From contig JAAXXD010000019.1 in the NCBI GenBank assembly GCA_013334655.1, forward strand, positions 1 to 34,916: a DNA stretch of 34,916 nt. Reading direction: 5' to 3'. Origin of the DNA: Chlorobaculum sp. (GTDB lineage: Bacteria; Bacteroidota; Chlorobiia; Chlorobiales; Chlorobiaceae). Below the pieces are notes generated by a model, which searched no databases, had not been told where the DNA came from, and worked only from the letters and a program-made list of their open reading frames with translations. Positions 5,500 to 22,263 of this stretch are shown here, piece after piece (position 1 is the stretch's first letter; every line of letters begins with the position of its first letter). Position numbers and translations under genes: made by a program.

Positions 5500-6552
5500 A
5501 TGAAAATTCTCGTTACCGGCGCTGCCGGATTCATCGGTTTCCATCTTTGCGAACGCCTCGCTTCAAGAGGTGACGAAGTGGTCGGCATCGACAACATCAA
5601 TGATTACTACGACCAGCGCGTCAAATACGGACGACTCGCATACTCGGGCATCGATGAATCCGCCATCGAATACGGCAAGCCTGTTCAGTCGTCGAAACAT
5701 CCCGGCTACCGCTTCGTCAAGCTCAATCTTGAAGACAAGGAGGGAATCGACAAGCTGTTCAGGACGGAAAAATTCGATGCGCTCTGCAATCTTGCCGCCC
5801 AGGCTGGCGTGCGGTACTCGCTCACCAATCCAGGCGCTTACGTCAGTTCGAATATCGTCGGCTTTGCCAATCTGCTGGAGGCGGCCCGCCACAACAACCT
5901 CGCCAATTTCTGCTATGCTTCAAGTTCGTCGGTCTATGGCCTGAACGAAAGTCAGCCCTTCTCGGTGCATGATAACGTCGATCACCCGCTCAGCCTCTAC
6001 GCGGCGAGCAAGAAATCGAACGAGCTGATGGCGCACACCTACAGCCACCTGTTCCGCATTCCGACCACCGGCTTGCGCTTCTTCACCGTCTACGGCCCCT
6101 GGGGCAGGCCCGATATGGCGCTCTTTCTCTTCACCAAGGCCGCGCTCGAAGGTCGCCCGATTGACGTATTCAACTACGGCAACATGCAGCGTGATTTCAC
6201 CTACATCGACGACATCGTCGAGGGTGTCGTGCGCGTGCTCGACCATCCGGCGCAGCCGAATCCCGACTGGAGCGGCGCTGATCCCGATCCCGGAACCTCA
6301 TCCGCACCGTACCGGGTCTACAACATCGGTAACAATCAGCCGGTCAGCCTGATGGATTACATCGGAGCTGTCGAAAAGGCGCTCGGCAAAACCATCGAAA
6401 AAAACCTGCTTCCCATGCAACCGGGCGACGTGCCTTCGACCTACGCCGACGTGAGCGACCTGGTGAACGATCTCGGCTACAAACCTGAAACGACGGTGCA
6501 GGAGGGGGTGGATCGCTTCATCACCTGGTACCGTGAATTTTTCAACGTCTGA
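5500..6552 (+). CDS. NAD-dependent epimerase, UDP-glucuronate 4-epimerase-like
   Basis: This 350-residue enzyme is an extended short-chain dehydrogenase. The NAD-binding GAAGFIG motif is at residues 7-13, SSSSVYG is at 141-147, and the catalytic YAASK is at 167-171. The segments IDNINDYYD and [15 protein letters not shown] are typical of the CapI/LpsL type, which interconverts UDP-glucuronate and UDP-galacturonate in the cytoplasm. It is the first gene of the plus-strand polysaccharide cluster, 16 bases upstream of a UDP-sugar dehydrogenase that could supply its uronic acid substrate. A small hairpin (GCCCG/CGGGC, 5466-5480) sits in the leader. Exact sugar specificity (GlcA/GalA versus N-acetylated forms) is inferred from sequence type only. 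Confidence 0.87.
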
Positions 6553-6568
6553 ACCAGCGCCATTTCTA

Positions 6569-7867
6569 ATGAAGAATACAAAAATAGCTGTAATCGGCCT
6601 GGGTTACGTCGGCCTGCCTCTCGCCGTGGAGTTCGCGAAGAAATTCCCGGTGACCGGTTTTGACATCAAACCGGGTCGGATCGAAGAGCTGAAAAAAGGG
6701 TGCGACTCAACCCTCGAAGTCAGTGAGGAGGGGCTCACCTCGGTGCTCGCGGCAAACAACCCGCTGAACGCGGCGGATGACAAAGGGCTCTTCGTCACCT
6801 CCGCAATCGCAGAGATCGCCGGAGCGAACATCTACATCATCACCGTGCCGACGCCGACCGACCGGCACAACCGTCCGGTGCTGACCCCGCTGGTCAGGGC
6901 GAGCGAAACCGTCGGACGGGTGCTGAAAAAGGGGGACATCGTCATCTACGAATCGACCGTCTACCCCGGCGCGACCGAGGAAGATTGCGTGCCGGTGCTC
7001 GAAGAGGTCTCCGGCCTGGTTTTCAACGAGGACTTTTTCGCGGGCTACTCTCCCGAGCGGATCAACCCCGGCGACAAGGAGCATACGGTCACAAAAATCA
7101 AAAAAGTGACCTCCGGCTCGACCCCCGAGGCCGCCCGAAAGGTTGACGATCTCTACCGTTCGATCATCACGGCGGGCACGCACCTGGCCTCGTCGATCAG
7201 AGTAGCCGAGGCAGCCAAGGTGATCGAGAACTCGCAGCGCGACATCAACATCGCCTTCGTCAACGAACTGGCGATGATCTTCAATCGCATGGGCATCGAC
7301 ACCCTCGATGTACTCGAAGCGGCGGGCAGCAAATGGAACTTTCTTCCTTTCCGCCCCGGCCTGGTGGGCGGCCACTGCATCGGCGTCGATCCCTACTACC
7401 TTGCGCAGAAGGCGCAGGAGTATGGCTATCACCCGGAGATCATCCTCGCGGGCCGACGCCTGAACGACAACATGGGCAAATATGTCGCTTCGGAGGTGGT
7501 CAAGCTGATGATTTCGAAAGAGATCAGAATCAAAGGCTCGAAGGTGCTCATGCTTGGCATCACCTTCAAGGAGAACTGCCCCGACATCCGCAACACCCGC
7601 GCCGTCGATATTGTCGCCGAACTGCGCCAGTACGGCGTCGAGGTGCACATCCACGATCCCTGGGCCAACCCGGAGGAGGTGCGGCACGAGTACGGCCTGG
7701 AGTGCATCGACAAACCGTGCGGTGACAAATACGACGCCGTTATCCTCGCCGTCGCCCACAAAGCGTTCGCCGATATGAATATCCGCTCTCTTTGCTCATG
7801 CTCCAACGCCGTGATCTATGACGTGAAGGGGGTGCTGCCAATCGGGGATATTGACGGCAGATTGTAA
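6569..7867 (+). CDS. Nucleotide-sugar 6-dehydrogenase (WbpO/TviB type)
   Basis: The enzyme oxidises C6 of a UDP-hexose or UDP-N-acetylhexosamine to the uronic acid in two NAD-dependent steps. From the ATG at 6569 it has 432 residues. The NAD site [11 protein letters not shown] is at 9-19, and the [15 protein letters not shown] segment of the WbpO/TviB branch is at about 94-108. The conserved [20 protein letters not shown] stretch starts at 215, and the catalytic cysteine lies in [11 protein letters not shown] (C270). The frame can be extended upstream to 6533, but that overlaps the epimerase and adds an unrelated 12 residues. It is co-directional with the epimerase and 3 bases from the next glycosyltransferase. 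The WbpO/TviB features favour a UDP-GlcNAc or UDP-GalNAc substrate, but plain UDP-Glc cannot be excluded. Confidence 0.9.
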
Positions 7868-7870
7868 CGG

Positions 7871-8938
7871 ATGAAGCTTCTCTTCGTCAACTCCGCCAGA
7901 GAGTGGGGCGGCACTGAAAAATGGACGCGGATGGCCGCCCGCAAGCTCTCGGAGAAGCATGAGGTCTCGCTCGTTTACCGGAAAGCGGTGGTGGGCGAGA
8001 ACTTCGACCTGCCAAAATTCCGCCTCCCCTGCTTCAGCCATGTCGATCTTTTTACGCTGTTTCGAATGGTCTCGATCATTCGGCAGCTTGGCATCGAGGT
8101 GATCATCCCGACCAAGCGCAAGGATTACCTCCTCGGCGGCCTGGCCGGGCGGATGACCGGCACGCCGATGATCGTGCGCCTCGGCGCTGACCGCAAGTTG
8201 CGCTGGCCCTGGCAGCGCTTCATGTACCACACTCTCAGCAGTGGAATCATCGTCAACGCGGGCAAGATCAAAAAGACTCTGCTCGAAACCGGCTACATTC
8301 CCGAAGCAAAAATCCGCGTCATCTACAACGGCCTCGACACCGCCGAACTCGACCGTCGGCGCTCGGAGCAGCCCGTCGCCAAGCCCTTTCCTGTCACCAT
8401 CACCGGGCTGGGACGGCTCACCTGGAACAAAGGCTACGACTTTCTTATCCGCAGTTTCGCCCGATTCGTCGAAGAGAGCGGCAACTGCAACGCGGGCCTC
8501 GTCATCATCGGCGACGGAGCGCAGAAGGAGGAGTTCGCGAAGCTGGCGGTGGAGCTGGGGCTGCGGGAGCGCGTGCTCTTTGCCGGCTTCCAGAAGAATC
8601 CCTACCCGTGGCTCGCTGTGAGCGACATTTTCGCCGTCACCTCGACCAACGAGGGGCTGCCCAACGCCCTGCTCGAAGCGATGTACCTCGGCAACGCGCC
8701 CATCAGCACCAGAGCAGGCGGCGTCGATGAGGTGATCGAAGACGGTCTGAACGGCTACCTGCTCGATTACGGCGACGAGGAGGCACTGGCGAAAGCATTG
8801 CAATCGCTCGTCGAGTCGCCGGAGCGCCGGGCGGAGTTCACGAAGAATGCACGGGAACGGATCATCGATCAGTTTTCGTTGGATCGGATGTCGAGCGAAA
8901 TCGCCGGTTTCTGCCGGGATGTGGCGGGAAAAGCATGA
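7871..8938 (+). CDS. GT4-family glycosyltransferase (paralogue 1)
   Basis: This 355-residue protein has a GT-B fold. The N-terminal acceptor domain begins MKLLFVNSAREWGGTEKW and contains the Gly-Gly loop. The C-terminal nucleotide-sugar domain has VTITGLGRLTWNKGYDFLI and the E-x7-E motif EGLPNALLE, followed by GNAPISTRAGGVDEVI. It probably transfers a sugar retaining anomeric configuration, at the cytoplasmic membrane face. It starts 3 bases after the dehydrogenase stop, so the two are tightly coupled. It is closely related to the next gene: both share the DLFTL...VSIIR and PTKRKDY blocks, evidence of a tandem duplication. Donor and acceptor are unknown. Confidence 0.9.
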   Translation: MKLLFVNSAREWGGTEKWTRMAARKLSEKHEVSLVYRKAVVGENFDLPKFRLPCFSHVDLFTLFRMVSIIRQLGIEVIIPTKRKDYLLGGLAGRMTGTPMIVRLGADRKLRWPWQRFMYHTLSSGIIVNAGKIKKTLLETGYIPEAKIRVIYNGLDTAELDRRRSEQPVAKPFPVTITGLGRLTWNKGYDFLIRSFARFVEESGNCNAGLVIIGDGAQKEEFAKLAVELGLRERVLFAGFQKNPYPWLAVSDIFAVTSTNEGLPNALLEAMYLGNAPISTRAGGVDEVIEDGLNGYLLDYGDEEALAKALQSLVESPERRAEFTKNARERIIDQFSLDRMSSEIAGFCRDVAGKA

Positions 8939-10165: not shown

Positions 10166-11275
10166 TTGAACATTCTCTTCATCAACTCCATCAGCCGCAA
10201 CAAATTCGGCGGCGGCGAAAAATGGATGGTTAACGCCGCCAAAGGCCTGACCGACCGCGGCCATAACGTGGTGCTCGCCAGCAAGCGCAACTCCCGGCTT
10301 TTGGAATATGCCGCGGGCAAGGGCGTCCGGACTGAAGTGATGGAGATTCGCGGCGACTTCAGCCCGCTGGCGACCTTGAAGATCGCCTCGTGGATGAAGC
10401 GCCATGAGACCGACATCCTCATCTGCAACCTCAACAAGGATGTGCGCGTCGCGGGCTTCGCCGCGCGGCTCGTCGGGCGGCCCGTGGTGCTGGCGCGTCA
10501 CGGCATGTTGCTGTGCAGCAAGAAGTGGAAGCACAAACTCTCGCTCACGCGCCTCACCGACGGCATCATCACCAACAGCCGCACCATCCGCGAAGCCTAC
10601 GCCGGATACAGCTGGTTCGACCGCGACTTCGTCAAGGTGATCTACAACGGCCTCACCATTCCCGAAAAAGTCACGGCCTTCGACTTCGCCTCGCGCTTTC
10701 CCGGCAAAAAGATCATCTACAGCGCCGGACGCCTCTCGAAACAAAAAGGATTCGAGTACCTGATCGACGCCGCCGCCATGCTGAAACGCAAACGCGACGA
10801 CCTCATCTTCGCCATTTCGGGCGAAGGCAAGCTCGAAGCCGAACTGAAAAGCCGGGTCAAAGCGCTCGGCCTCGAAGAGACGTTCATCTTCCTCGGCTTC
10901 ACGCCGGACATCTACCCGTGCCTCAAAGGGTGCGACCTCTTCGTGCTCGCATCGCTTTTCGAGGGAATGCCGAACGTCGTCATGGAGGCAATGGCGATGC
11001 AAAAGCCGGTTGTCGCCACCGACGTGAACGGCGCGAGAGAGCTGATGGGAGCGAGCGACGAAAGCCTCGTCTGCGACACCGGCCTCATCATCCCGCCAAA
11101 AGATCCGACGGCCATTGCCGAGGCGATTGAAAAGATCATCGACAACCCCGCCCTCCTCGAAGCATACGGCAAAGCCGGACATGAGCGCGTCGAAACGCAA
11201 TTCACCGTGCCGATCATGATCGATAATCTCGAAAAACACCTGCAAGCGAAGCTCGCCGAAAAAAGCGGACGGTGA
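10166..11275 (+). CDS. GT4-family glycosyltransferase (paralogue 3)
   Basis: This 369-residue GT-B enzyme starts at a TTG codon with an AGAGG ribosome-binding site five bases upstream. The N-terminus NILFINSISRNKFGGGEKW keeps the Gly-rich loop and E-K-W seen in paralogue 1. The C-terminal donor domain contains IIYSAGRLSKQKGFEYLIDA and the E-x7-E motif EGMPNVVME followed by KPVVATDVNGARELM. It probably adds one sugar to a growing lipid-linked or LPS-core oligosaccharide. It lies 11 bases after the previous gene and overlaps the next by one base (TGATG), so all are in one operon. The donor sugar is not predictable. Confidence 0.9.
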   Translation: MNILFINSISRNKFGGGEKWMVNAAKGLTDRGHNVVLASKRNSRLLEYAAGKGVRTEVMEIRGDFSPLATLKIASWMKRHETDILICNLNKDVRVAGFAARLVGRPVVLARHGMLLCSKKWKHKLSLTRLTDGIITNSRTIREAYAGYSWFDRDFVKVIYNGLTIPEKVTAFDFASRFPGKKIIYSAGRLSKQKGFEYLIDAAAMLKRKRDDLIFAISGEGKLEAELKSRVKALGLEETFIFLGFTPDIYPCLKGCDLFVLASLFEGMPNVVMEAMAMQKPVVATDVNGARELMGASDESLVCDTGLIIPPKDPTAIAEAIEKIIDNPALLEAYGKAGHERVETQFTVPIMIDNLEKHLQAKLAEKSGR

Positions 11276-12330
11276 TGAAACCCCGAAAAAAGAAAAAAAG
11301 GCAGTTCCGCCAGGCTTTCGCCCGTTTGCTGCAACGCTTTGCGCCGCCGAGAAGCGGCATCGCCGAATTCAGCGGCCCGCTCGACTCCGTCGTCATTCTC
11401 GCTCAGGAGAAGCTCGGCGACTGCGTGTTGCTCACGCCGCTCGTCCGCAATCTGCGCCGCGCCTTTCCCGATCTCGAAATCCACATCATCGCCTTCAGTC
11501 GCGCATCGGCCAGCTTTTTCATGAACGCCCCGGAGGTGACGGCGGTGCACCTCGCCAAGAAGCAGCCCCAGCGCTATTTCCGCGAGGTGCTCGCCCGCGA
11601 GTTCGACCTGCTCTTCAACACCAAGGATCATCCCTCGACCCACTTCCTGCTCCAGTCGGCGCTCATCCGCGCCCGCTTCAAGGTCGGGCACAAAAACCCG
11701 TTTCACGAGGGACTTTACGACCGGCTGCTCGACACGGAGTTCCACCTCCACATGACGCTTAAAAACTGCGCCCTCCTGCCGCTGCTCGGCATCAGTGCGG
11801 ATTTGGAAGCGTGCCGTCCGTCGCTTCCTGCCATGCCGCTTCCTGAGGAGCTGACAGCATTTCTCGGCAAGATCGACTCCGACGCGCCCATCGGCGTCAA
11901 CATCAGCGCGGGCGAGCCGAACCGGCTGTGGACGGAGGAAAAATGGAAAACGCTGATCGGCGGTTTTCCCGACGAGCGATTCGTCGTGCTCTCCGGCCCG
12001 GATGACCTCGACGCAAAGCGCCGCCTCGAAGCGAGCTCCCCGAACGTCATCGCCTCGCCCTCCACGCGGAACCTCTACGAAGCGAGCCGCATCGTCTCGA
12101 AGCTCCGGCTGCTCTTGACGCCGGACACCTCGATGGTACATGTGGCCTCGTCAACCGGCACGCCTGTCGTCGGGCTGTACCGCGAAGCGCCGCAGGACAT
12201 TTCGCGATTCGGCCCCTATGCCATTCCGTACGAGATCGTCATCTCGCCCACGGGCGAAGTGAGTGGCATCGAGCCGGACGAGGTCGCCAGCGCCATGCAG
12301 CGACTCAAGCAGCAAGCCCGACAAGGCTGA
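11275..12330 (+). CDS. GT9-family (heptosyltransferase-like) glycosyltransferase
   Basis: The 351-residue protein begins with a strongly basic stretch (MKPRKKKKRQ). It then shows the GT9 N-terminal signature EKLGDCVLLTPLVRNL (45-60), followed by FPDLEIHII. Near the C-terminus is the family donor-site motif DTSMVHVASSTGTPVVGLY. GT9 enzymes such as WaaC, WaaF and WaaQ transfer ADP-heptose to the LPS inner core at the cytoplasmic face of the inner membrane. That would place this cluster in LPS core rather than exopolysaccharide synthesis. The start ATG overlaps the preceding TGA (TGATG), indicating coupling; a GTG three bases earlier is a possible alternative. The specific heptose or hexose used is unknown. 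Confidence 0.9.
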   Translation: MKPRKKKKRQFRQAFARLLQRFAPPRSGIAEFSGPLDSVVILAQEKLGDCVLLTPLVRNLRRAFPDLEIHIIAFSRASASFFMNAPEVTAVHLAKKQPQRYFREVLAREFDLLFNTKDHPSTHFLLQSALIRARFKVGHKNPFHEGLYDRLLDTEFHLHMTLKNCALLPLLGISADLEACRPSLPAMPLPEELTAFLGKIDSDAPIGVNISAGEPNRLWTEEKWKTLIGGFPDERFVVLSGPDDLDAKRRLEASSPNVIASPSTRNLYEASRIVSKLRLLLTPDTSMVHVASSTGTPVVGLYREAPQDISRFGPYAIPYEIVISPTGEVSGIEPDEVASAMQRLKQQARQG

Positions 12331-12341
12331 TCGCCTTTCCG

Positions 12342-12371
12342 TTGGGAAAGAACTGACGGATCAGCTATATT
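12342..12371 (+). promoter_or_regulatory. Possible internal promoter (TTGGGA / TATATT)
   Basis: TTGGGA at 12342-12347 and TATATT at 12366-12371 are separated by 18 bases. A start site about 7-8 bases downstream would put the message within a few bases of the ATG at 12382, so the transcript would be nearly leaderless. The same TTGG...TATATT pattern precedes tRNA-Val. This is pattern matching only. Confidence 0.35.
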
Positions 12372-12381
12372 AAAATCTTAC

Positions 12382-13377
12382 ATGAATAATACCGTTCATG
12401 GATTTATGACCACTCTTGTTTTTGTCCTGACGTTCATCATCAGCGTCGCTCTGTCGATGCTCATCCGTCAAAGGTTGAAGCGAAAACAGGCAAAAATAGC
12501 GCGCCGTGACAGTCTGATCTGGTCTATCGGACTGTACGAAGGCCCGGATCCGGTTAAGCTCTCCCCTGCTTCGGAAGTCCGCAATCCGATTCTGACTGCG
12601 AAAGATGTAACCGATGTGCCCGCGCGCTTCGTCGCCGATCCATTCATGATAACGCACGACAAGCAGTTCCACCTTTTTTTCGAGGTGCTGAACGCCAAAA
12701 GGGAAAGCGGCGAAATCGGTCACGCTATCAGTGACGATCTTAAAACCTGGCGGTACACCGGCGTAGTGCTCCGGGAGCGTTTCCACCTCTCCTATCCCTA
12801 TGTTTTCGAGCACGATGGCCAGATGTACATGATTCCCGAGTGCGCCAAATCAAAATCGATCCGCCTCTACCGGGCATCCTCGTTTCCGCGAGACTGGCGG
12901 CCAGTCGCAACGCTTCTCAGAGGAAGCAAACGAGAGGTGCCGTTGCTCGACCCGTCTGTCGTTTTTCACGACGGCCACTGGTATTTGTTCAGCTACATGC
13001 GCAAGGTCAACAATCTCCATCTGCATCTCGCCGAATCGCTGACCGGCCCGTGGAGGGAGCACCCGGCAAGCCCCGTCTTCAGGAACAGCGACCACTTCAC
13101 ACGTCCCGGAGGGCGGGTCGTCGAGGAGGGCGCGGTGCTCTATCGCTTCGCACAGGACGGACAGCCGTATTACGGCAGTAAGGCATGGGCATTCCGCATC
13201 ACCGAACTGACGCCAACCACTTATCGCGAGGAGCCGGTTTCCGAAACGCCGGTCATCCAGGCAGGAGATGAGGCATGGAACAACCTTGGAATGCACACGG
13301 TCGATCCGCACCGGATGCCGAATGGCCGCTGGATCGCGCTGGTGGACGGACTTGGAAACTGCATTGAGCTCAAATGA
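12382..13377 (+). CDS. Membrane-anchored beta-propeller protein (GH43/GINT1-N-like)
   Basis: The 331-residue protein has one N-terminal membrane helix (TTLVFVLTFIISVALSML, about residues 10-27). A basic stretch (RQRLKRKQAK) follows, so the rest may lie in the cytoplasm, though topology is uncertain. The remainder has blade-like repeats: FVADPFMI...FHLFFEV, ISDDLKTWRYTGVVL, HLSYPYVFEHDGQMYMIPE and LLDPSVVFHDGHWYLFS. This pattern is typical of the five-bladed propeller of GH43/GH32-like proteins and of the N-terminal domain found in glucosamine inositolphosphorylceramide transferase-like proteins. Such domains occur in polysaccharide loci, often beside a formyltransferase-like partner, which is absent here. 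Its stop overlaps the next GT4 start by four bases (ATGA). Function, enzymatic or carbohydrate-binding, is not known. Confidence 0.7.
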   Translation: MNNTVHGFMTTLVFVLTFIISVALSMLIRQRLKRKQAKIARRDSLIWSIGLYEGPDPVKLSPASEVRNPILTAKDVTDVPARFVADPFMITHDKQFHLFFEVLNAKRESGEIGHAISDDLKTWRYTGVVLRERFHLSYPYVFEHDGQMYMIPECAKSKSIRLYRASSFPRDWRPVATLLRGSKREVPLLDPSVVFHDGHWYLFSYMRKVNNLHLHLAESLTGPWREHPASPVFRNSDHFTRPGGRVVEEGAVLYRFAQDGQPYYGSKAWAFRITELTPTTYREEPVSETPVIQAGDEAWNNLGMHTVDPHRMPNGRWIALVDGLGNCIELK

Positions 13378-14552
13378 AGCACAAAACCTTCGTCATACTC
13401 TGCTCGGAATATCCGCCATTCATGGGAGGCATCGCGCTCTGGGCGGAGAATCTGCTGAAAACGCTGACCGCGAACGGCTACGAGGCCATCGTGCTGACGC
13501 ATCTGACGCGGAGCCACAAGAAAAAGGGGGTGCGCTCGACGCGAGAGGTGCACTACATCGCCGGGCACGACTGGAGAAAATTTCACTGGCTCTATCAATT
13601 GCCAACATTGCTAAAATATATGGCGACGCGGAAAGAGCTTATTCTCGTCGCCGCGACCTGGGACGACCTGCAAGTCATCTACCGCCTCAAGCCGCTTTTC
13701 CGCTTCAAAATCTATTGCGCCTCGCATGGCACGGACGTCACCAAGCACGTCTTTCCGAGAAAACCGAAGGTGATCACAAAAATCAACAAGATTTACAGCT
13801 CGATCGATCTCTTCATGCCGGTCAGCCGTTCCCTCGATAACATAGCCAGATCGATGTATCCGAATCTCCGCTGCCCAAGCCTTGTGCTCGGCTGCAATGT
13901 GCTCACGGACGTTTTCGTTCCGGAGCACGAACCAGAGAGAAAAAAAGCTCTGCGCAAACAATTCGGCATCGAACCGGAATCCAAGCTGCTCATCACCGTG
14001 GGCCGAATGGTTGGCGTCAAAGGGTTCCGGCATGTTCTCATGGCCGTGGCCGCCCTGCGCGACCGGTACCCCGATCTCGCCTATATGATCGTCGCCGACC
14101 GTGATGAACCGGAATGCTTCCTGATCGATGCGCTGCTCAAAGAACTTCGAATCGAAAATCGGGTTATCATCCATCCTTCGGTCGATAACCATGAACTGCC
14201 AAAGCTCCTGCAAGCTGCTGACATCTTCGTGCTGACCTCGGAGCCGGTTTACTTCCCCTCCTATCAGGAGGAGGGATTGCCGAGAGTGATCCCGGAAGCG
14301 AGCGCCTGTGAAATTCCCGTCATTGTCAGCACTACAGGAGGCCTGCCGGAAGGGGTGCGTGACGGCCAAACCGGATTCATCGTCCCGAACGGCGACCAGG
14401 ATGCGCTGAAACGAAGCATCTGCTCGCTCTTCGACGACCCCGCCAAAGCGCGTGATATGGGCAGACGGGGGCGCAGGTACGTCCTCGAACAATTCTCGGA
14501 TACAACAATGATGAGTAAGATATTATCTATGGCAGAAAACACGGTTTTATAA
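13374..14552 (+). CDS. GT4-family glycosyltransferase
   Basis: This 392-residue GT-B enzyme begins MKHKTFVILCSEYPPFMGGIA, with the P-P-x-x-G-G-I/V loop common in GT4 proteins. The donor domain shows LITVGRMVGVKGFRHVL and the E-x7-E motif EGLPRVIPE, followed by IPVIVSTTGGLPEGV and GQTGFIVPNGD. It is a different GT4 subgroup from the three tandem paralogues upstream. It overlaps the propeller gene by four bases, so the two may be translated together and could function together. It is the last gene with the GC-rich composition of the host; AT-rich DNA begins immediately after its stop. The sugar specificity is unknown. Confidence 0.9.
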   Translation: MKHKTFVILCSEYPPFMGGIALWAENLLKTLTANGYEAIVLTHLTRSHKKKGVRSTREVHYIAGHDWRKFHWLYQLPTLLKYMATRKELILVAATWDDLQVIYRLKPLFRFKIYCASHGTDVTKHVFPRKPKVITKINKIYSSIDLFMPVSRSLDNIARSMYPNLRCPSLVLGCNVLTDVFVPEHEPERKKALRKQFGIEPESKLLITVGRMVGVKGFRHVLMAVAALRDRYPDLAYMIVADRDEPECFLIDALLKELRIENRVIIHPSVDNHELPKLLQAADIFVLTSEPVYFPSYQEEGLPRVIPEASACEIPVIVSTTGGLPEGVRDGQTGFIVPNGDQDALKRSICSLFDDPAKARDMGRRGRRYVLEQFSDTTMMSKILSMAENTVL

Positions 14553-15600: not shown

Positions 15601-16473
15601 ATGATCATAGTCAAAGTTACAGGTGGACTGGGAAACCAGTTATTTCAATATGCGGCAGGCAGGCATCTTGCTTTTATTAACAATTCCGAAGTTGTTCTCG
15701 ATCTTTCATGGTACTCAAAAATACCATCGGCAGATACGGTCAGGAATTATGAACTCGACAAATACCAGATCAAAGCAAGAACAACCTCTTTTACCGAGAA
15801 TATTTTTTGTCAAATCCATAACAATCGCACAATAAAAAAACTCCCCCTACTAAACAAATACATATATAAATACAAAGAAAAATCATTTTTTTTTGACCCA
15901 AACGTATTATCACTTAGAGATAATGTTTATCTGAACGGATATTGGCAAAGTCAACTTTATTTTGAAGGCATCGCCGAAATCATAAAAAATGAATTCACTC
16001 CGATCGCCACACCAAGCGAAGAAGATGCAAAGCTGATAAGCATCATAAAAAAAACGAGTTGCATTGGCGTTCACGTAAGACGCGGTGATTATGTTTCTAA
16101 AATAAACACAGCAAACACTCACGGCACTTGCTCTCCGGAATACTATCAGAATGCGTTCAGTATAATTTGCTCACATATAAACAATCCTCATTTTATTGTA
16201 TTTTCAGACGATATTAAGTGGTCTAAAAATAATATTGATTTCCCTGGAACAGTTTCTTTCGCCTCGCACAACGGAGCCGAGAATGCTTTTCAGGATTTAC
16301 GTTTGATGTCACTCTGCGATCATCAGATTATTGCAAACAGCAGTTTCAGTTGGTGGGCCGCGTGGCTAAACCAAAAAGAAGATAAAATCATAATATCACC
16401 GAAGCAATGGTTTGCTGATAACACAATAAATACAAGCACCTTAATACCCAAAGAATGGATAAAAATCTCATAA
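15601..16473 (+). CDS. GT11 alpha-1,2-fucosyltransferase-like enzyme
   Basis: The 290-residue product has the family GT11 hallmarks. The N-terminus is MIIVKVTGGLGNQLFQYAAG, the GDP-fucose-binding motif HVRRGDYV is at 158-165, HFIVFSDDIKW comes later, and NSSFSWWAAWL lies near the C-terminus. GT11 enzymes transfer L-fucose from GDP-fucose, usually alpha-1,2 to galactose, making an H-antigen-like unit. The donor pathway is encoded by gmd and fcl 2-4 kb away on the other strand. It lies 29 bases after the GT2 gene and 84 bases before the GT6 gene, all in AT-rich DNA. The family call is strong; linkage and acceptor are inferred from the family. Confidence 0.92.
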   Translation: MIIVKVTGGLGNQLFQYAAGRHLAFINNSEVVLDLSWYSKIPSADTVRNYELDKYQIKARTTSFTENIFCQIHNNRTIKKLPLLNKYIYKYKEKSFFFDPNVLSLRDNVYLNGYWQSQLYFEGIAEIIKNEFTPIATPSEEDAKLISIIKKTSCIGVHVRRGDYVSKINTANTHGTCSPEYYQNAFSIICSHINNPHFIVFSDDIKWSKNNIDFPGTVSFASHNGAENAFQDLRLMSLCDHQIIANSSFSWWAAWLNQKEDKIIISPKQWFADNTINTSTLIPKEWIKIS

Positions 16474-16557
16474 ACGACTCTGCGGACATTTTATAGATAC
16501 TGCAGAGCGACATCAATAAAATATTTTTTTGTAAAAACTTTTTATCGAGATCGTATC

Positions 16558-17361
16558 ATGAAAAAAAATACAGCTATTCTTTATATATGCACCGGGAAAT
16601 ACATAATATTCCTGAAAAGCTTCTATAATTCAGCAAAAAAATACCTTTTAAAACACCATAATATAACTTATTTTGTATTTACAGATGCACCTATTCCGAA
16701 AGCATTTAAAAAACATAACAATCTGATATTTATTCCTCAAAAACAGTTGGGATGGCCCCACGACACACTCAACAGATTTGATTTATTTTATTCAATACGG
16801 GAAAAACTTGAAAAATATGATTACATTTACTTTTTCAATGCGAATCTTAGAATAAACTGCGAGATCGGCGACGAAATCCTCCCAGAAAACGAAAATCAGA
16901 TAGTCGTCTGCAAACACCCCGGCTATTTTCATAAAAAACGCCAGGATTTTCCATATGAAAATAACATAAATTCAGCAGCATACGTACCAGATAACAAAGG
17001 AGAATTTTATTTTGCAGGCGGCCTTAATGGAGGAACCTCAACATCTTATATAAAATTAATTAATAACTTAAGAACCGCAATACTTGATGATAGCTCACGC
17101 AATATCATTGCAAAATGGCATGACGAATCGCACCTCAACAGATATGTTATTGACCATGAAAGTGTCAAGACATTATCTCCTGCATACCTCTACCCCGAAG
17201 GCGCAAAACTGCCTTTCGAAAACAAAATAACAATACTAAACAAAAAATATTATGGGGGACACAGCTTACTAAGAAACCAAAATAAGAAACAATACTCCCT
17301 TAAATATTTTAAATATAAAACAATATATCTTATAAGAAATTATTTTAGCAATATTTTTTAA
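16558..17361 (+). CDS. GT6-family (ABO blood-group-type) glycosyltransferase
   Basis: This 267-residue protein matches bacterial GT6 enzymes along its length. The features are ILYICTGKY near the start, LGWPHDTLNRFDLF (64-77), FFNANLRI (92-99), HPGYFH (120-125), FAGGLNGG (152-159), WHDESHLNRY (187-196), PAYLYPEG (208-215) and YGGHSLLR (232-239). GT6 transfers GalNAc or Gal alpha-1,3, classically to Fuc-alpha-1,2-Gal, as in human A and B transferases. The usual D-x-D metal motif is replaced by N94-A95-N96, as in known bacterial members, which act without metal. It directly follows the GT11 gene, so the two probably act in sequence. Donor choice (GalNAc or Gal) cannot be read here. ATG at 16558 is the only good start. 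Confidence 0.9.
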   Translation: MKKNTAILYICTGKYIIFLKSFYNSAKKYLLKHHNITYFVFTDAPIPKAFKKHNNLIFIPQKQLGWPHDTLNRFDLFYSIREKLEKYDYIYFFNANLRINCEIGDEILPENENQIVVCKHPGYFHKKRQDFPYENNINSAAYVPDNKGEFYFAGGLNGGTSTSYIKLINNLRTAILDDSSRNIIAKWHDESHLNRYVIDHESVKTLSPAYLYPEGAKLPFENKITILNKKYYGGHSLLRNQNKKQYSLKYFKYKTIYLIRNYFSNIF

Positions 17362-17471
17362 ACATCTCAGAAAATAAAATATATTTTTTTATTAAATAAT
17401 ATCAATTTTTACAAGAACAAGCTTTTTTAGCTAAGAGACTTAAAACCGAAGGGGAAATTACAAACACTTAA

Positions 17472-18133
17472 AACGTTAATTATGACAATAATATAGCAAA
17501 AATAACCATCGCCTTTAACAACATTCAAGCATTGAACCACCAAATAAGAATTGTCAATAAATATCTATCGGACGATTTCGTTTTTATAATTGTAGATAAC
17601 TATTCGAGAGCAACATAAAACATAAAATAAGAGATTTATGCATTAGCATAAATACTTCTTACCTAAAAATGAAATAAAATCCTTATATAAAATACAAAGG
17701 AAGCTCATCTCATGTAAGAGCTCTCAACTGGACATTAAGAAACTATATCCGCAGAGAACATGCAGCATCATTGAAATCTTACGGGTTAAAGGAATATTTG
17801 GAGAACTTCAATCAAGAGAAAAAATATGGCACCTCTGGCCAGGCTTCTGTTTTTTCGAGTATGATAGAATCCAGAATATGAAAATTGACTTTTTGCCAGG
17901 CATTATCAATGACACTCGCGTCTATATTGGTGGCCTAATATGGAATCCGTAATACCAATATATTAATAAAACAAAAAATATGCACTCCCAGTCACTAAAC
18001 TCATATGATCAATGAAAAAGGCAACTTTCAAAAAGGTAGATATGAAATTATCGGAGATTGAATACATACCTATAATGCATTTCAACGGATAGAAACAGAA
18101 GATAAATATGATATTGTAAACAACCAGTACTGA
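17472..18133 (+). pseudogene. Decayed glycosyltransferase-like gene of a polysaccharide locus
   Basis: No intact frame exists, but conceptual translation in shifting frames gives an ordered, coherent protein. About 17472-17618 encodes KITIAFNN...YLSDDFVFIIVDNYS and ends in TAA. 17678-17770 encodes NPYIKYKGSSSH then RALNWTLRNYIRREHAAS. 17761-17952, in another frame, encodes IWHLWPGFCFFEYDRI then DFLPG and ends in TAA. 17999-18133 encodes GRYEIIGD-stop-IHTYN then EDKYDIVNNQY-stop, where both TGA codons sit where Trp would be expected. The N-terminal strand-helix-strand with VDN resembles a GT-A nucleotide-sugar domain. The overall pattern recalls uncharacterised proteins of O-antigen and capsule loci, recalled and not searched. 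A piece between the second and third segments seems deleted. It is the last remnant of the AT-rich block. Confidence 0.72.
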
Positions 18134-18278
18134 TTGATTACTAAAACCCTCTCAAGCGCTCCATTGCGCAATTGAGATACATAGTATTTTGAACTACTTT
18201 TATTTACTTCTAAATAAAGTTTCAGGCAATGAACTCTTGAACGTTTTATCATAAATAAATAGAAAATCTCAAGAAAGT
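18134..18278. other. Convergent intergenic gap with AT-rich hairpin
   Basis: This gap lies between the decayed plus-strand gene and the end of gmd on the minus strand. It holds an inverted repeat at 18196-18220 (ACTT[T]TATTTA, loop CTTC, TAAATAAAGT; one bulged base). There is also an imperfect stem around 18151-18176 built on CTCAA/TTGAG and GCGC/GCGC. Either could serve as a weak bidirectional terminator. No gene is seen. Confidence 0.35.
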
Positions 18279-19379
18279 TTATTCTGAAAAATCATGAGCA
18301 GTATAACCATGCTTTTTCACGAGAGCGTCACGTTGGGCCCGTTTCAAGTCTTCACGAACCATTTCAACCACCAGTTCATCAAAGCCAACTGTCGGCACCC
18401 ATCCCAAACGATCTCTTGCCTTCGATGCGTCACCAAGCAATGATTCAACTTCGGTAGGTCTGAAATACATCGGATCGACACTGACGATGCACCTGCCATG
18501 ATCATCCATGCCCTTTTCCTCGACTCCTGTGCCCTGCCACCGTATGCTTATGCCAAGTTCATCAGCCGCCGCCGCAATGAAATCTCTTACACTGTGCTGA
18601 ACTCCAGTGGCTATCACATAATCTTCCGGACTTTGCTGCTGGAGCATAAGCCATTGCATCTGTACATAATCCTTGGCATGTCCCCAGTCACGGCGCGCGT
18701 CAAGATTTCCGACATAAAGATGATCCTGAAGTCCAACTTTTATTCGTGCAAGTGCGCGCGTAATCTTGCGTGTAACAAAAGTCTCTCCCCTGACCGGGCT
18801 TTCATGATTGAAGAGTATGCCGTTACAAGCGTAAATGCCATAGGCTTCACGGTAATTGACCGTAATCCAGTAAGCGTACAATTTTGCCACTGCATAAGGG
18901 CTTCTGGGATAAAATGGCGTCGTTTCTTTTTGCGGTGTTTCCTGAACCAAACCGTACAATTCAGAGGTGCTTGCCTGGTAGAAACGGGTTTTTTTCTCCA
19001 TACCCAGTATACGAATCGCTTCAAGCAACCTCAGTGCGCCGAGTGCATCTGAATTTGCCGTGTATTCAGGTTCTTCAAAGCTCACTGCCACATGGCTTTG
19101 CGCTGCAAGATTATAGATTTCATCCGGGCGAGTATGCTGGATAATTCTGATCAAGCTGGAAGAATCGGTCATATCGCCATTATGAAGAAAAAATCTCACA
19201 TTTTTTTCATGGCGATCCTTGTAGAGATGGTCAATTCGAGCGGTATTGAAAAGACTGCTTCTTCTTTTTATTCCATGAACAATATAGCCTTTGTCAAGAA
19301 GGAGCTCTGCAAGATAAGCGCCGTCCTGACCTGTTATTCCCGTAATAAGTGCAATTTTCTGATTTAATTGCATAGTCAT
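18279..19379 (-). CDS. gmd: GDP-mannose 4,6-dehydratase
   Basis: Gmd converts GDP-D-mannose to GDP-4-keto-6-deoxy-D-mannose, the first step to GDP-L-fucose and related deoxysugars, in the cytoplasm. From the ATG at 19379 it has 366 residues. NADP-binding GITGQDG is at 14-20, STSELYG at 137-143 and catalytic YAVAK at 162-166. The Gmd-specific stretches [18 protein letters not shown] and [18 protein letters not shown] are present, and C-terminal [20 protein letters not shown] is typical. A start at 19373 is equally possible; the TTG at 19397 overlaps fcl and is unlikely. It lies directly after fcl in the minus-strand run ABC exporter-fcl-gmd. Its product is used by Fcl and then presumably by the GT11 enzyme nearby. 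Confidence 0.96.
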
Positions 19380-19393
19380 TAGAGTTCTATTAA

Positions 19394-20353
19394 TCAAGAT
19401 AGCTTTTTCAAATAATCTTTATATGCCAACTCAAGGCCATTTTCAAGGCTGACCTTGGCTGTCCACCCAAGAGACTGAAGTTTCGAACTATCCATAAGCT
19501 TTCTTGGCGCACCGTCTGGCTTGGAGACATCATATATAATATTTCCCCGATAACCTGTAATTCGAGCAACAAGCTCCGCCACATCTCGTATGGACAGATC
19601 ATCCCCGAAACCGACATTGATATGACTCTGCATCGGCAAAGTATTGGCGTCATAAACCGCTTTGTCAAGCTGCATGACATGAAGACAAGCTGATGCCAGG
19701 TCATCGACAAAGAGAAATTCACGACGAGGCTTGCCGCTACCCCAAACAATAACAGATTCTTCACGGTTCTGCTTTGCCTCATGGAAACGGCGAATCAAAG
19801 CAGGAATCACATGTGAATTTTCAGGATGATAATTGTCACCCGGGCCATAGAGATTCGTTGGCATCACACTACGGAAATCTGTTCCATGCTGGCGGTTGAA
19901 ACTTTCACAAAGCTTGATACCCGCAATTTTTGCAATGGCATAGGGTTCGTTGGTAGGTTCGAGAGTACCGGTAAGCAAAGCGTCTTCAGCCATCGGTTGA
20001 GCAATGCATTTCGGATAAATACAACTTGACCCAAGAAATAATAATCGTTCCACGCCACTTGTAAAAGCAGAATGAATGACATTAGCCGCTATCATGAGAT
20101 TATCATAGATAAAATCGGCAGGAAACGTGTTATTGGCATGGATCCCCCCAACCTTGGCAGCTGCAAGATACACCAGCTCAGGTCTCTCTTTCTCGAAAAA
20201 CGTCCTGACCTTATGCTGATCGGTTAGATCAAGCTCGCTATGGGAACAGGTAACTATATTACGGCATCCATTCTCTCGAAGCGCTCTTACAATAGCAGCC
20301 CCAACCATCCCGTTATGCCCGGCAACAAATATTTTAGAAAAAGATAGTGTCAT
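19394..20353 (-). CDS. fcl: GDP-L-fucose synthase
   Basis: Fcl epimerises C3 and C5 and reduces C4 of GDP-4-keto-6-deoxymannose with NADPH to give GDP-L-fucose. The 319-residue protein has the cofactor motif GHNGMVG (12-18), GSSCIYP (108-114) with the catalytic Ser/Cys region, and YAIAK (138-142). The family-typical segments [13 protein letters not shown] and [20 protein letters not shown] are also clear. The gene sits 11 bases downstream of the ABC exporter and just upstream of gmd, so the three form one unit. Together with Gmd it completes the pathway to the donor needed for GT11 fucosylation. Composition is intermediate between the AT-rich island and the host core. Confidence 0.96.
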
Positions 20354-20364
20354 TGTAAACGGGT

Positions 20365-22263
20365 TTATTCTTTTTTGCCTTTTTCACTATTCGCCGTGAA
20401 TTGTATATCATAATACATCTTGTATAATCCGTTCTTGGCGATCAGCTCTTCATGCGACCCAGACTCGGCAACCCGTCCCTTGTCGAACACGATGATTCGG
20501 TCGGCGTTCTTGACCGTGGAAAGCCGGTGGGCCACAACGAGAGCCGTTCTGTCGGAGAGCGCATTGTCGATTGCCTCCTGTACAACCTTCTCGGATTCGT
20601 TGTCGAGAGCGCTGGTCGCCTCGTCGAAAATCAGGAGATCGGGGTTGCGCACCATCGCTCTGGCGATAGCGAGCCGCTGGCGCTGGCCTCCCGAAAGTTG
20701 AATGCCGCGATCACCAACAATGGTATCATACCTGTCGGGTTTCTCTTCAATGAAGTTGTGAGCATTGGCCAGCTTTGCCGCATGTTCAACCTGCTCATGC
20801 ATGACTTCGCCATGAACGCCGTAAGCGATATTATGCTCGATCGTATCGTTGAAAAGAATCACCTCCTGACTCACCACACCGATCATGCGGCGCAACTGCT
20901 TGTAATCGAACTCTTTGATATCGACGCCATCAATCGTAATTCGCCCCGAATCCACATCGAAAAACCGAAGCAAGAGATCGACCGCCGTCGATTTACCCGA
21001 ACCCGACTGACCGACCAGCGCCACCATCTCACCTTTACGAATGTCGAAAGAAACATTGTCGAGAACTTTGGGAGTACTCCCATCCTTACGGTAACTGAAG
21101 GTGACCTTCTCAAAACGAATGATGTCGTTGAATCCGGTAATAGTTCTAACACCATTCTTCACCAGAGGTTCAGCATCAATGACTTCAAACAGACGTTCCG
21201 CTGAAGCCATGCCATTCTGAATATTGGTGTTGGCTTCACCGAGCGTTTTGAGCGGGCCCATCACCGAATAGAGACTGAAGGCGAAAACAATCAACTCATT
21301 TGCCGTCATCCTCCCCTCGAAAACCTGAAGTCCGCCAAACCAGAGCACCATCGCAACCGCAAAGACAAGCAATGTTTCATTGAGTGGCCCGATGATATTT
21401 CTCAAACGAAAGATTTTAAGATCCAAACGGCGGAAATCACTGGTGAACGCTTTGAATCGTTCGACTTCGACCTCTTCGAAAGCGCTGGACTTGATTACCT
21501 TGATACCGTTGAATTTCTCTTGCAAGACCGAATTCATATCTCCCATCCGGCTGCGCACAATATGTGACAGATGCTTAACTTTCTTTCCTATCACCCTGAT
21601 GATAACAAAAACAATGCTGGAGACAGAAAGTGCAAACAGGGTCAGTTTCCAGCTCAGAACCAGAAGCACGCCAAGATAAAAAAATATAGTGAACGGGTTC
21701 TGAATAAAATTGATAAAGGTGGAACTGATCGAGGACTGAACATTTTCAACGTCACTATAGACATGGTTCATCAAACTGCCGACACGCTGGTGATTGAAAT
21801 AATCGAGGTGTTTTTCAATGATCGAGTGAAATACGTCGTCCCTCAGTTTTTTGGTCGATTTGGTCTGAATATTGAAAATGATCTGCTTGTTGAGATAGAG
21901 AAACAGATTTTTACATGCAAAGGTCGCTACAAGGAACACGCAGATATTGAACAGGGTGCGCTGTTTTGTTTCCGCATGGAACAACTGCGTCATCACCTGT
22001 TTCACGCTCTCCTGCATTGTCGCAGTATCGATCAGACTTTCCCGGGACAACGAGCCTGGCTTCGGAATACTCGTTAACGCTGTGGATGGCGGAGCTGTGG
22101 CAACTGGTGTTTTGTCGGCATTGAATATCTCATTGAGCAGCGGGAGTACGGAATAGATTGAAACAACGCTGAAAAGTGATGTGAGAATGCTTATCAGAAA
22201 AACCATCGCCACTTTTCCTTTGGATGGCGCGAGATAGGCGAGAACACGTAATATTAACTTCAT
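20365..22263 (-). CDS. MsbA-like ABC exporter (fused membrane and ATPase domains)
   Basis: The 632-residue protein is a half-transporter: an ABC transmembrane domain followed by an ATPase. Walker A is GQSGSGKST (418-426), the signature is LSGGQ (523-527), Walker B is LLIFDE (543-548), and the switch His lies in VVAHRLST. As a homodimer it should export a lipid or lipid-linked glycan across the inner membrane; MsbA-type flippases carry lipid A-core. It is about 50 residues longer than typical MsbA, due to a Pro/Thr/Ala-rich insert between TM1 and TM2 (about residues 50-100, probably periplasmic). Being upstream of fcl and gmd in the same unit suggests that it serves the fucosylated glycan, though export of another lipid is possible. 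Confidence 0.92.

Follow-up and report, generated by a model that had tools for sequence, protein, structure and literature searches.

A contig of a Chlorobaculum sp. draft genome (GenBank assembly GCA_013334655.1, contig JAAXXD010000019.1) encodes a GT2 glycosyltransferase, a GT11-family fucosyltransferase, and a GT6 homologue of the blood-group A/B transferases in direct succession, with the GDP-fucose genes gmd and fcl facing them. We analyzed positions 1 to 34,916 of its forward strand (34,916 nucleotides; hereafter, the window) and consider it probable, from comparison of its sequences, that these genes constitute a side-branch module of a green sulfur bacterial surface polysaccharide, which would assemble an H-then-A-like (or B-like) trisaccharide. 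We infer the following steps: Gmd and Fcl would convert GDP-mannose to GDP-L-fucose; the GT2 enzyme would place a sugar, probably β-galactose (Gal), on the growing glycan; the GT11 enzyme would add L-fucose to that Gal, probably in α-1,2 linkage (H-like); and the GT6 enzyme would add N-acetylgalactosamine (GalNAc; favored) or Gal, in α-1,3 linkage, to the same Gal, such that the A-like (or B-like) trisaccharide would end on lipopolysaccharide (LPS) or on another surface glycan.

The GT6 protein exceeds the curated cutoffs of both families to which it was matched (PF03414, 141.8 bits versus a cutoff of 25; NF041524, 280.7 bits versus a cutoff of 250), and its nearest solved protein is BoGT6a of Bacteroides ovatus (PDB 4ayj and 4cj8; E = 3.2e-68). 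Its AlphaFold2 model (pLDDT 93.4) superposes on BoGT6a (4cj8) with a root mean square deviation (rmsd) of 1.3 and a TMq of 0.86; among the fold matches listed, human GTA and GTB chains rank after BoGT6a (rmsd 2.1 to 3.1). Fifteen of the 17 BoGT6a residues named in PMC3961637 (here and below, the part of that paper available to us) are kept in the window GT6, including N95-A96-N97, H122, G157, W189-H190-D191-E192, K231, and R243. The two departures, N69D and T134P, recur in bacterial relatives (D in 31/80 and P in 33/80), and over all BoGT6a-aligned positions printed, named or not, 19 of 25 are identical. NAN stands in place of DXD in the window GT6, which is, as judged by its sequence, of the metal-independent type; human GT6 enzymes have DXD and a metal (PMC4202792, again as available in part, and PMC3961637).

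The donor triplet (human positions 266 to 268) reads Ala-Gly-Gly in the window GT6, the same as in BoGT6a, whose donor is UDP-GalNAc and which acts on 2′-fucosyl-lactose (PMC3961637); human GTA has Leu266/Gly268, and GTB has Met266/Ala268 (PMC4202792). Because the triplet is that of the UDP-GalNAc-using enzyme, UDP-GalNAc appears to be the favored donor and an A-like product is favored over a B-like one; a B-type (Gal) donor is less likely. The first-pass annotation of this DNA had proposed an "A- or B-like" antigen, of which the A half is thus strengthened and the B half weakened. Searches in E. coli returned no characterized Gal-using bacterial GT6 for comparison, and the donor assignment draws on BoGT6a and human GTA/GTB. 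Among 80 bacterial GT6 proteins, Met-Gly-Gly is the commonest triplet (25/80), and Ala-Gly-Gly occurs in 17/80. In the GT6 tree, whose bootstrap had not settled, the window GT6 pairs with a Dysgonomonadaceae GT6 (L042; support 99/87; 52% identity) outside the BoGT6a clade, and no recent donor of the gene is visible there.

The GT11 frame contains GVHVRRGDY, an instance of the HxRRGDY-type motif that we take to be the signature of GT11 α-1,2-fucosyltransferases, and its R160 and D163 are invariant in 27 aligned rows, the window's included. A PDB sequence search with this protein returned nothing convincing (best E = 0.79). With its AlphaFold2 model (pLDDT 90.2) as the query, Foldseek placed fucosyltransferases (AtFUT1, FUT8, NodZ, and POFUT1/2) in 49 of 50 listed rows, in loose superposition, the best being AtFUT1 (E = 1.6e-7); a heptosyltransferase occupies row 47. 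The presence of gmd and fcl beside the gene agrees with a GDP-fucose donor.

Evidence that the two transferases act in one pathway comes from their pairing elsewhere. A GT6 alignment was scanned against 84,980 species genomes and the best 80 of at least 184 confirmed bacterial loci were kept, in which GT11 was sought by a profile based on eight GT11 sequences, of which seven came from GT6-containing loci; these 80 loci, like the best 80 of 353 viral loci considered below, are the best-scoring ones, so both samples lean toward the window's type of GT6. GT11 is present in the fetched flanks of 62/80 bacterial loci and lies within 300 bp of GT6 in 42/80, whereas a GT11-sized gene placed randomly in the same 62 loci was adjacent in a mean of 3.5 (maximum of 12 in 5,000 draws). 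The excess persists with one representative per 60%-identity GT6 cluster (GT11 linked in 44/59 and within 300 bp in 27/59), and among the 49 loci flanked by more than 8 kb at each end, GT11 is present in 37 and adjacent in 23. Members of the 42 adjacent pairs share a strand in 35 cases and a reading frame in 2. Pfam confirms GT11 in 33/33 members of one GT11 alignment and in all but one of 7 weak or unusual cases. Distances between GT6 proteins also correlate with those between their GT11 partners (r = 0.606, n = 43; maximum of 0.217 in 2,000 permutations), a correlation to which shared descent could contribute and which cannot tell it apart from joint transfer; in 2 of the 43 rows (L084 and L089), one fused frame represents both proteins. 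Within a 394-genome sample of the phylum, both GT6-bearing genomes have GT11 within 1 kb (by hand calculation, the chance of 2/2 at the GT11 rate of 41/394 is ~0.011), although the GT11 of one of them (G091) carries a stop. The pairing of GT11 and GT6 is not due to chance.

Its hosts are varied. Many of the 80 bacterial loci come from gut-type bacteria, and the two matching plasmid records (of 72,556; Phocaeicola and Prevotella) have a GT6 overlapping a GT11 that passed Pfam, followed by a GT2 recognized by eye. Others have a free-living look, as judged from record names alone: GT11 adjoins GT6 in two Chitinophagaceae (L046 and L054), and the two are 0.7 to 1.6 kb apart in Sulfurospirillaceae (L120), Nomurabacteria (L061 and L118), and Pelagibacter (L087).

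In two unrelated lineages, the transferases are joined in a single protein. A Planctomycetota locus (L084, 9992-11623) encodes GT6 followed by GT11 in one 544-amino-acid frame, and a Gastranaerophilales locus (L089, 3774-5363) encodes GT11 followed by GT6 in one 530-amino-acid frame; both domains of each pass the Pfam cutoffs. Like the fusions described next, each of the two is represented by one assembly and might in principle reflect a sequence error, although a shared error is unlikely given that the two lineages have opposite domain orders; the proteins are candidate one-enzyme blood-group trisaccharide synthases. Further fusions bring in the preceding step: L056 has a GT2-GT11 fusion with GT6 directly after it (i.e., the gene order of the window), L052 has a GT2-GT11 fusion with GT6 2.3 kb further on, and Akkermansia muciniphila CSUN-56 (L107, 1168-5838) has a Galactosyl_T-methyltransferase-GT11 frame and, 4 bp beyond it, a 791-amino-acid frame with a C-terminal GT6 domain. 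Eighteen of the 42 adjacent bacterial pairs have a window-type GT2 next to them. Together, the fusions and GT2 neighbors suggest an order of addition of galactose (or another GT2 sugar), fucose, and the GT6 sugar, with the GT2 enzyme probably adding the sugar that GT11 then fucosylates. The genome encodes GalE above its cutoff, so UDP-Gal is probably available.

The pair is also common in viruses. Among 50,697 phage records, 71 match the window GT6 and 102 match the window GT11 (E ≤ 1e-3; GenBank/RefSeq doubles counted), and Synechococcus or Prochlorococcus phages, by name, account for 64 and 89 of these matches, respectively. Within the 80 viral GT6 loci kept (L122 to L201), GT11 occurs in 69 and is adjacent in 37 (positional null mean, 4.2; maximum, 12); by 60% clusters, the counts are 21/24 and 11/24 when any member is scored, and 19 and 9 with one representative. 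Synechococcus phages S-8S53, S-CAM9, and B23 resemble the window in having a GT11-GT6 pair, in which the end of GT11 and the start of GT6 share 4 bp; in S-8S53 and S-CAM9, an annotated epimerase immediately precedes the pair. Prochlorococcus phage P-SSM2 has both genes ~1.5 kb apart. These cassettes differ from the window's in the type of GT6: 78/80 viral loci have DXD, as in vertebrates, whereas the window has an NXN-type motif and all 80 bacterial proteins have N at the first motif position. The viral GT6 rows drawn in the tree fall mainly into two separate clades, and the phage rows lie in clades other than that of the window.

Adjacency, fusions, and correlated divergence give strong indirect support to the view that the product of GT11 serves as the acceptor of GT6. 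A different arrangement, which we regard as unlikely, would have both enzymes acting on the same glycan but not in an H-then-A/B series: GT6 might modify a nonfucosylated sugar (giving a linear B- or Forssman-like structure) and GT11 might act elsewhere or form another linkage. It is favored by the 18/80 bacterial GT6 loci that lack GT11 in the fetched flanks, by the inclusion of an α-1,3-fucosyltransferase (HhFT2) in the GT11 family (PMC4202792), and by the placement of BoGT6a and the window GT6 in different GT6 clades; the two fusions in opposite orders, an adjacency far above the positional null, and the correlated divergence argue against it, as do the residues named for the 2′-fucosyl-lactose-using BoGT6a (PMC3961637), which are largely kept, its acceptor contacts being outside the comparison.

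The first two of the points in its favor also count against our preferred H-then-A/B series, as do several others. The comparison with BoGT6a concerns named residues and not its fucosyl-lactose acceptor contacts, and the superpositions of the GT11 fold are loose (best TMq 0.50, rmsd 7.2). GT11 is lacking from the fetched flanks of 11/80 viral GT6 loci and from 12 of the 49 bacterial loci with more than 8 kb at each end; GT6 may therefore function in the absence of a linked GT11 (although, with short flanks at many loci, an apparent lack of GT11 may be a missed GT11). The two genes run in opposite directions in 5 of the 42 adjacent bacterial pairs, and in one of the 42 (L070), GT11 is in two pieces, of which the piece searched fails Pfam. 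The best solved relatives of the window GT2 are chondroitin synthase and various other GT2 enzymes, which were uninformative as to its function. For sugar supply, gmd, fcl, and GalE (the epimerase that the search covered) pass their cutoffs, and the supply of UDP-GalNAc is putative. The source assembly is a draft (2.43 Mb, 146 contigs, completeness of 84.5%, contamination of 4.0%), and the reading as a whole is built on comparison.

The first-pass annotation had placed GT11 directly upstream of GT6, with gmd and fcl converging on them, and this layout is borne out (Table 1): the GT11-GT6 gap is 84 bp, both genes are intact, and gmd and fcl are encoded on the opposite strand. GT2, 29 bp upstream of GT11, completes a GT2-GT11-GT6 block, and all five frames are open. 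The fcl gene starts 11 bp past the end of the ABC exporter gene on the same strand and is followed by gmd, which, with its mechanically assigned TTG start, overlaps fcl by 4 bp (the TIGR01472 match begins at gmd residue 14). Between GT6 and gmd lies a low-G+C stretch that is probably a decayed coding remnant; the two pieces of it that were searched (17647-17952 and 17472-17618) have no Pfam match. The first-pass annotation had passed over GT2, this stretch, the low G+C content of the block, and the run of fcl and gmd on from the ABC gene.

Table 1. Features of the surface-polysaccharide locus in the window
Feature	Positions	Strand	Evidence and remarks
Epimerase, TviB-like nucleotide-sugar dehydrogenase, GT4	5500..8938	+	Further genes of the same surface-polysaccharide locus
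GT4 - GT9 - GINT1N-domain protein - GT4	10166..14552	+	Left border; part of the genus-shared surface-polysaccharide locus
GT2 glycosyltransferase, 331 aa	14576..15571	+	PF00535, E = 1.4e-31; 35.6% G+C
GT11, alpha-1,2-fucosyltransferase family, 290 aa	15601..16473	+	PF01531, E = 2.9e-35, 122.4 bits (cutoff, 23.9)
GT6, blood-group A/B transferase family, 267 aa	16558..17361	+	PF03414, E = 2.7e-41; NF041524
Probable decayed coding remnant, 917 bp	17362..18278	no strand	30% G+C; short broken frames only
gmd, GDP-mannose 4,6-dehydratase	18279..19397	-	TIGR01472, 592.7 bits (cutoff, 415)
fcl, GDP-L-fucose synthase	19394..20353	-	NF047922, 510.6 bits (cutoff, 500)
MsbA-like ABC exporter	20365..22263	-	TIGR02203, 516 bits, under the cutoff of 602; right border of the variable stretch

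The FMO protein is a mark of green sulfur bacteria, and the assembly encodes one (PF02327, 725.7 bits); this protein supports the earlier reading of a probable green sulfur bacterium, and flanking genes common to same-genus genomes support the placement of the contig in it. In a comparison of 11 same-genus stretches, the epimerase, TviB-like dehydrogenase, first GT4 (GT4a), GT9, GINT1N-domain, and ABC genes recur where present (~46 to 93% identity), the first five mostly in the order of the window and the ABC gene on a strand that varies relative to them. At E ≤ 1e-120, 17 of 21 genus genomes, the window's own included, have the ABC gene (64 to 70% identity in the other 16); at E ≤ 1e-20, 13 of 21, again counting its own, have the GINT1N gene. 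G173 and G036 are two relatives in which the place after the second GT4 (GT4b) is taken by a GT2 with 46 to 47% identity and a G+C content of 56 to 58%, compared with 35.6% in the window. With shared flanks, a GT2 at the same place in these relatives, and other content beyond it, GT2-GT11-GT6 looks like the occupant of a variable slot in a genus-wide surface-polysaccharide locus. The slot of G173 that matches GT11-GT6 (L217, 9850-17000) holds two transposase-like frames, by our by-eye reading, plus other frames and is perhaps an exchange hot spot; searches of the G173 genome for GT6 and for GT11 found neither.

GT6 is rare in these bacteria, being present in 0/20 other same-genus genomes and in 2/394 sampled phylum genomes (its own counted), and GT11 is found in 2/21 genus and 41/394 phylum genomes; gmd homologues (64 to 79% identity) occur in 7/20 other same-genus genomes. 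In another same-genus genome, one contig (G157 contig 55; L027) unites fcl and gmd with a distant GT11 (32% identity), and GT6 is absent. Within the family, 10 listed genomes from a sister genus also have GT11, and fucosylation may thus be common across the family.

The base composition of the block stands apart. GT11 and GT6 have G+C contents of 36.5% and 31.8%, close to that of GT2, and the value drops abruptly from 54.6% in GT4b to 35.6% in GT2; gmd, fcl, and the ABC gene are at 45 to 47%, and the 16 other window genes measured are at 49.5 to 63.7%. This low G+C content relative to the rest of the window points to import as a block, and GT2-GT11-GT6 was probably acquired horizontally. Two further readings concern the block, and their probabilities overlap with each other's and with those of the readings above. 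One, in our estimate rather improbable, sees in it an import that is silent or in decay, with recent low-G+C genes that are not, or no longer, used; it is compatible with the trisaccharide module, since the pair could serve in such a pathway in other organisms. The compositional gap (32 to 37% versus 49.5 to 63.7%), the probable remnant directly beside GT6, and the lack of GT6 in the 20 other genus genomes fit this idea; full-length GT2, GT11, and GT6 frames without stops, the kept catalytic residues of GT6, and the adjoining GDP-fucose genes speak against it. The other, which we hold to be very improbable, is an assembly or binning artifact that joined a foreign low-G+C piece to a green sulfur bacterial contig. 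An abrupt compositional step in a fragmentary, 146-contig assembly is what such an artifact would leave, but the same contig carries genus genes to the left of the block and the genus ABC gene to its right, two relatives have a similar GT2 at the same place after GT4b, and the closest same-genus counterpart of gmd shares 79% identity with it. Contamination or a misbinned contig is thus an unlikely source, given the genus flanks and the same-genus gmd.

Known systems offer partial parallels. In the O-antigen pathway of E. coli O86, a bacterial GT11 (WbwK) and GT6 (WbnI) form a pair for a blood-group determinant; the B determinant has been assembled with the O86 enzymes, WbwK being the α-1,2-fucosyltransferase (PMC4202792). 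O86 differs in its Gal donor (B), as opposed to the Ala-Gly-Gly triplet pointing to GalNAc (A) here, and in its host, that of the window being an anoxygenic phototroph; at the sensitivity of the DNA search used, none of 5,426 E. coli genomes has a DNA match to the window GT6. BoGT6a is alike in its NAN and Ala-Gly-Gly motifs, named residues, and fold but is only ~46% identical to the window GT6, and the locus of its closest fetched relative, from Bacteroides sp. GM023 (L057), includes a divergent GT11-family gene in the opposite orientation. Human ABO synthesis (FUT1/FUT2 and then GTA/GTB) uses the same CAZy families and, if our reading is right, the same order of action, although human GT6 enzymes are ~26 to 28% identical to the window GT6 over the aligned fold and differ in the metal-dependent motif described above (PMC4202792 and PMC3961637); the likeness implies no claim of common descent of the pathways.

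Among open-license papers searched by title and abstract start, we found none that addressed the coupling of GT6 with GT11 across genomes or fusions between the two, which is no proof that these are unpublished, and none by title on green sulfur bacterial LPS. A 2010 J Biol Chem review reportedly treats GT6 in vertebrates and bacteria, and a 2012 paper is said to describe the BoGT6a structure.

The pathway and its two H-then-A/B steps, as proposed in the first-pass annotation, are supported by comparison (i.e., by adjacency, fusions, the BoGT6a-like site, and the GDP-fucose genes); the accompanying claim that they would be unexpected without a vertebrate host is not supported, since GT6 with linked GT11 also occurs in cyanophages and in genomes that, by name, look free-living. 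The finding is less odd than claimed for that reason, and mimicry of vertebrates becomes an unnecessary explanation. For the wider reading, we put the chances at about even: the H-then-A/B line (β-galactosyl or GT2 transferase, GT11, and GT6) may be an old mobile module of environmental bacteria and their viruses, rather than mimicry by vertebrate-associated germs, which has moved as a unit, fused repeatedly to give bifunctional enzymes, and been swapped into a chromosomal surface-glycan slot of the green sulfur bacterium, where it may alter recognition by partners or the receptors that phages use.

Blood-group-like antigens of bacteria tend to be discussed alongside vertebrate hosts. If the old-module reading is true, vertebrate ABO would be one late user of a widespread chemistry, and if the pair works as inferred here and in cyanophages, A/B-like trisaccharides would be part of the ordinary variation of environmental surface glycans. 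The pair itself is widespread outside the bacterium of the window, and it is the coupling across bacteria and phages, along with the fusions, that merits a second look: through the GT6/GT11 fusions, the proposed two-step pathway becomes directly testable, and they may also serve as one-pot enzymes in the synthesis of blood-group sugars. The comparison further shows which part of a green sulfur bacterial surface-polysaccharide locus varies between species of a genus.

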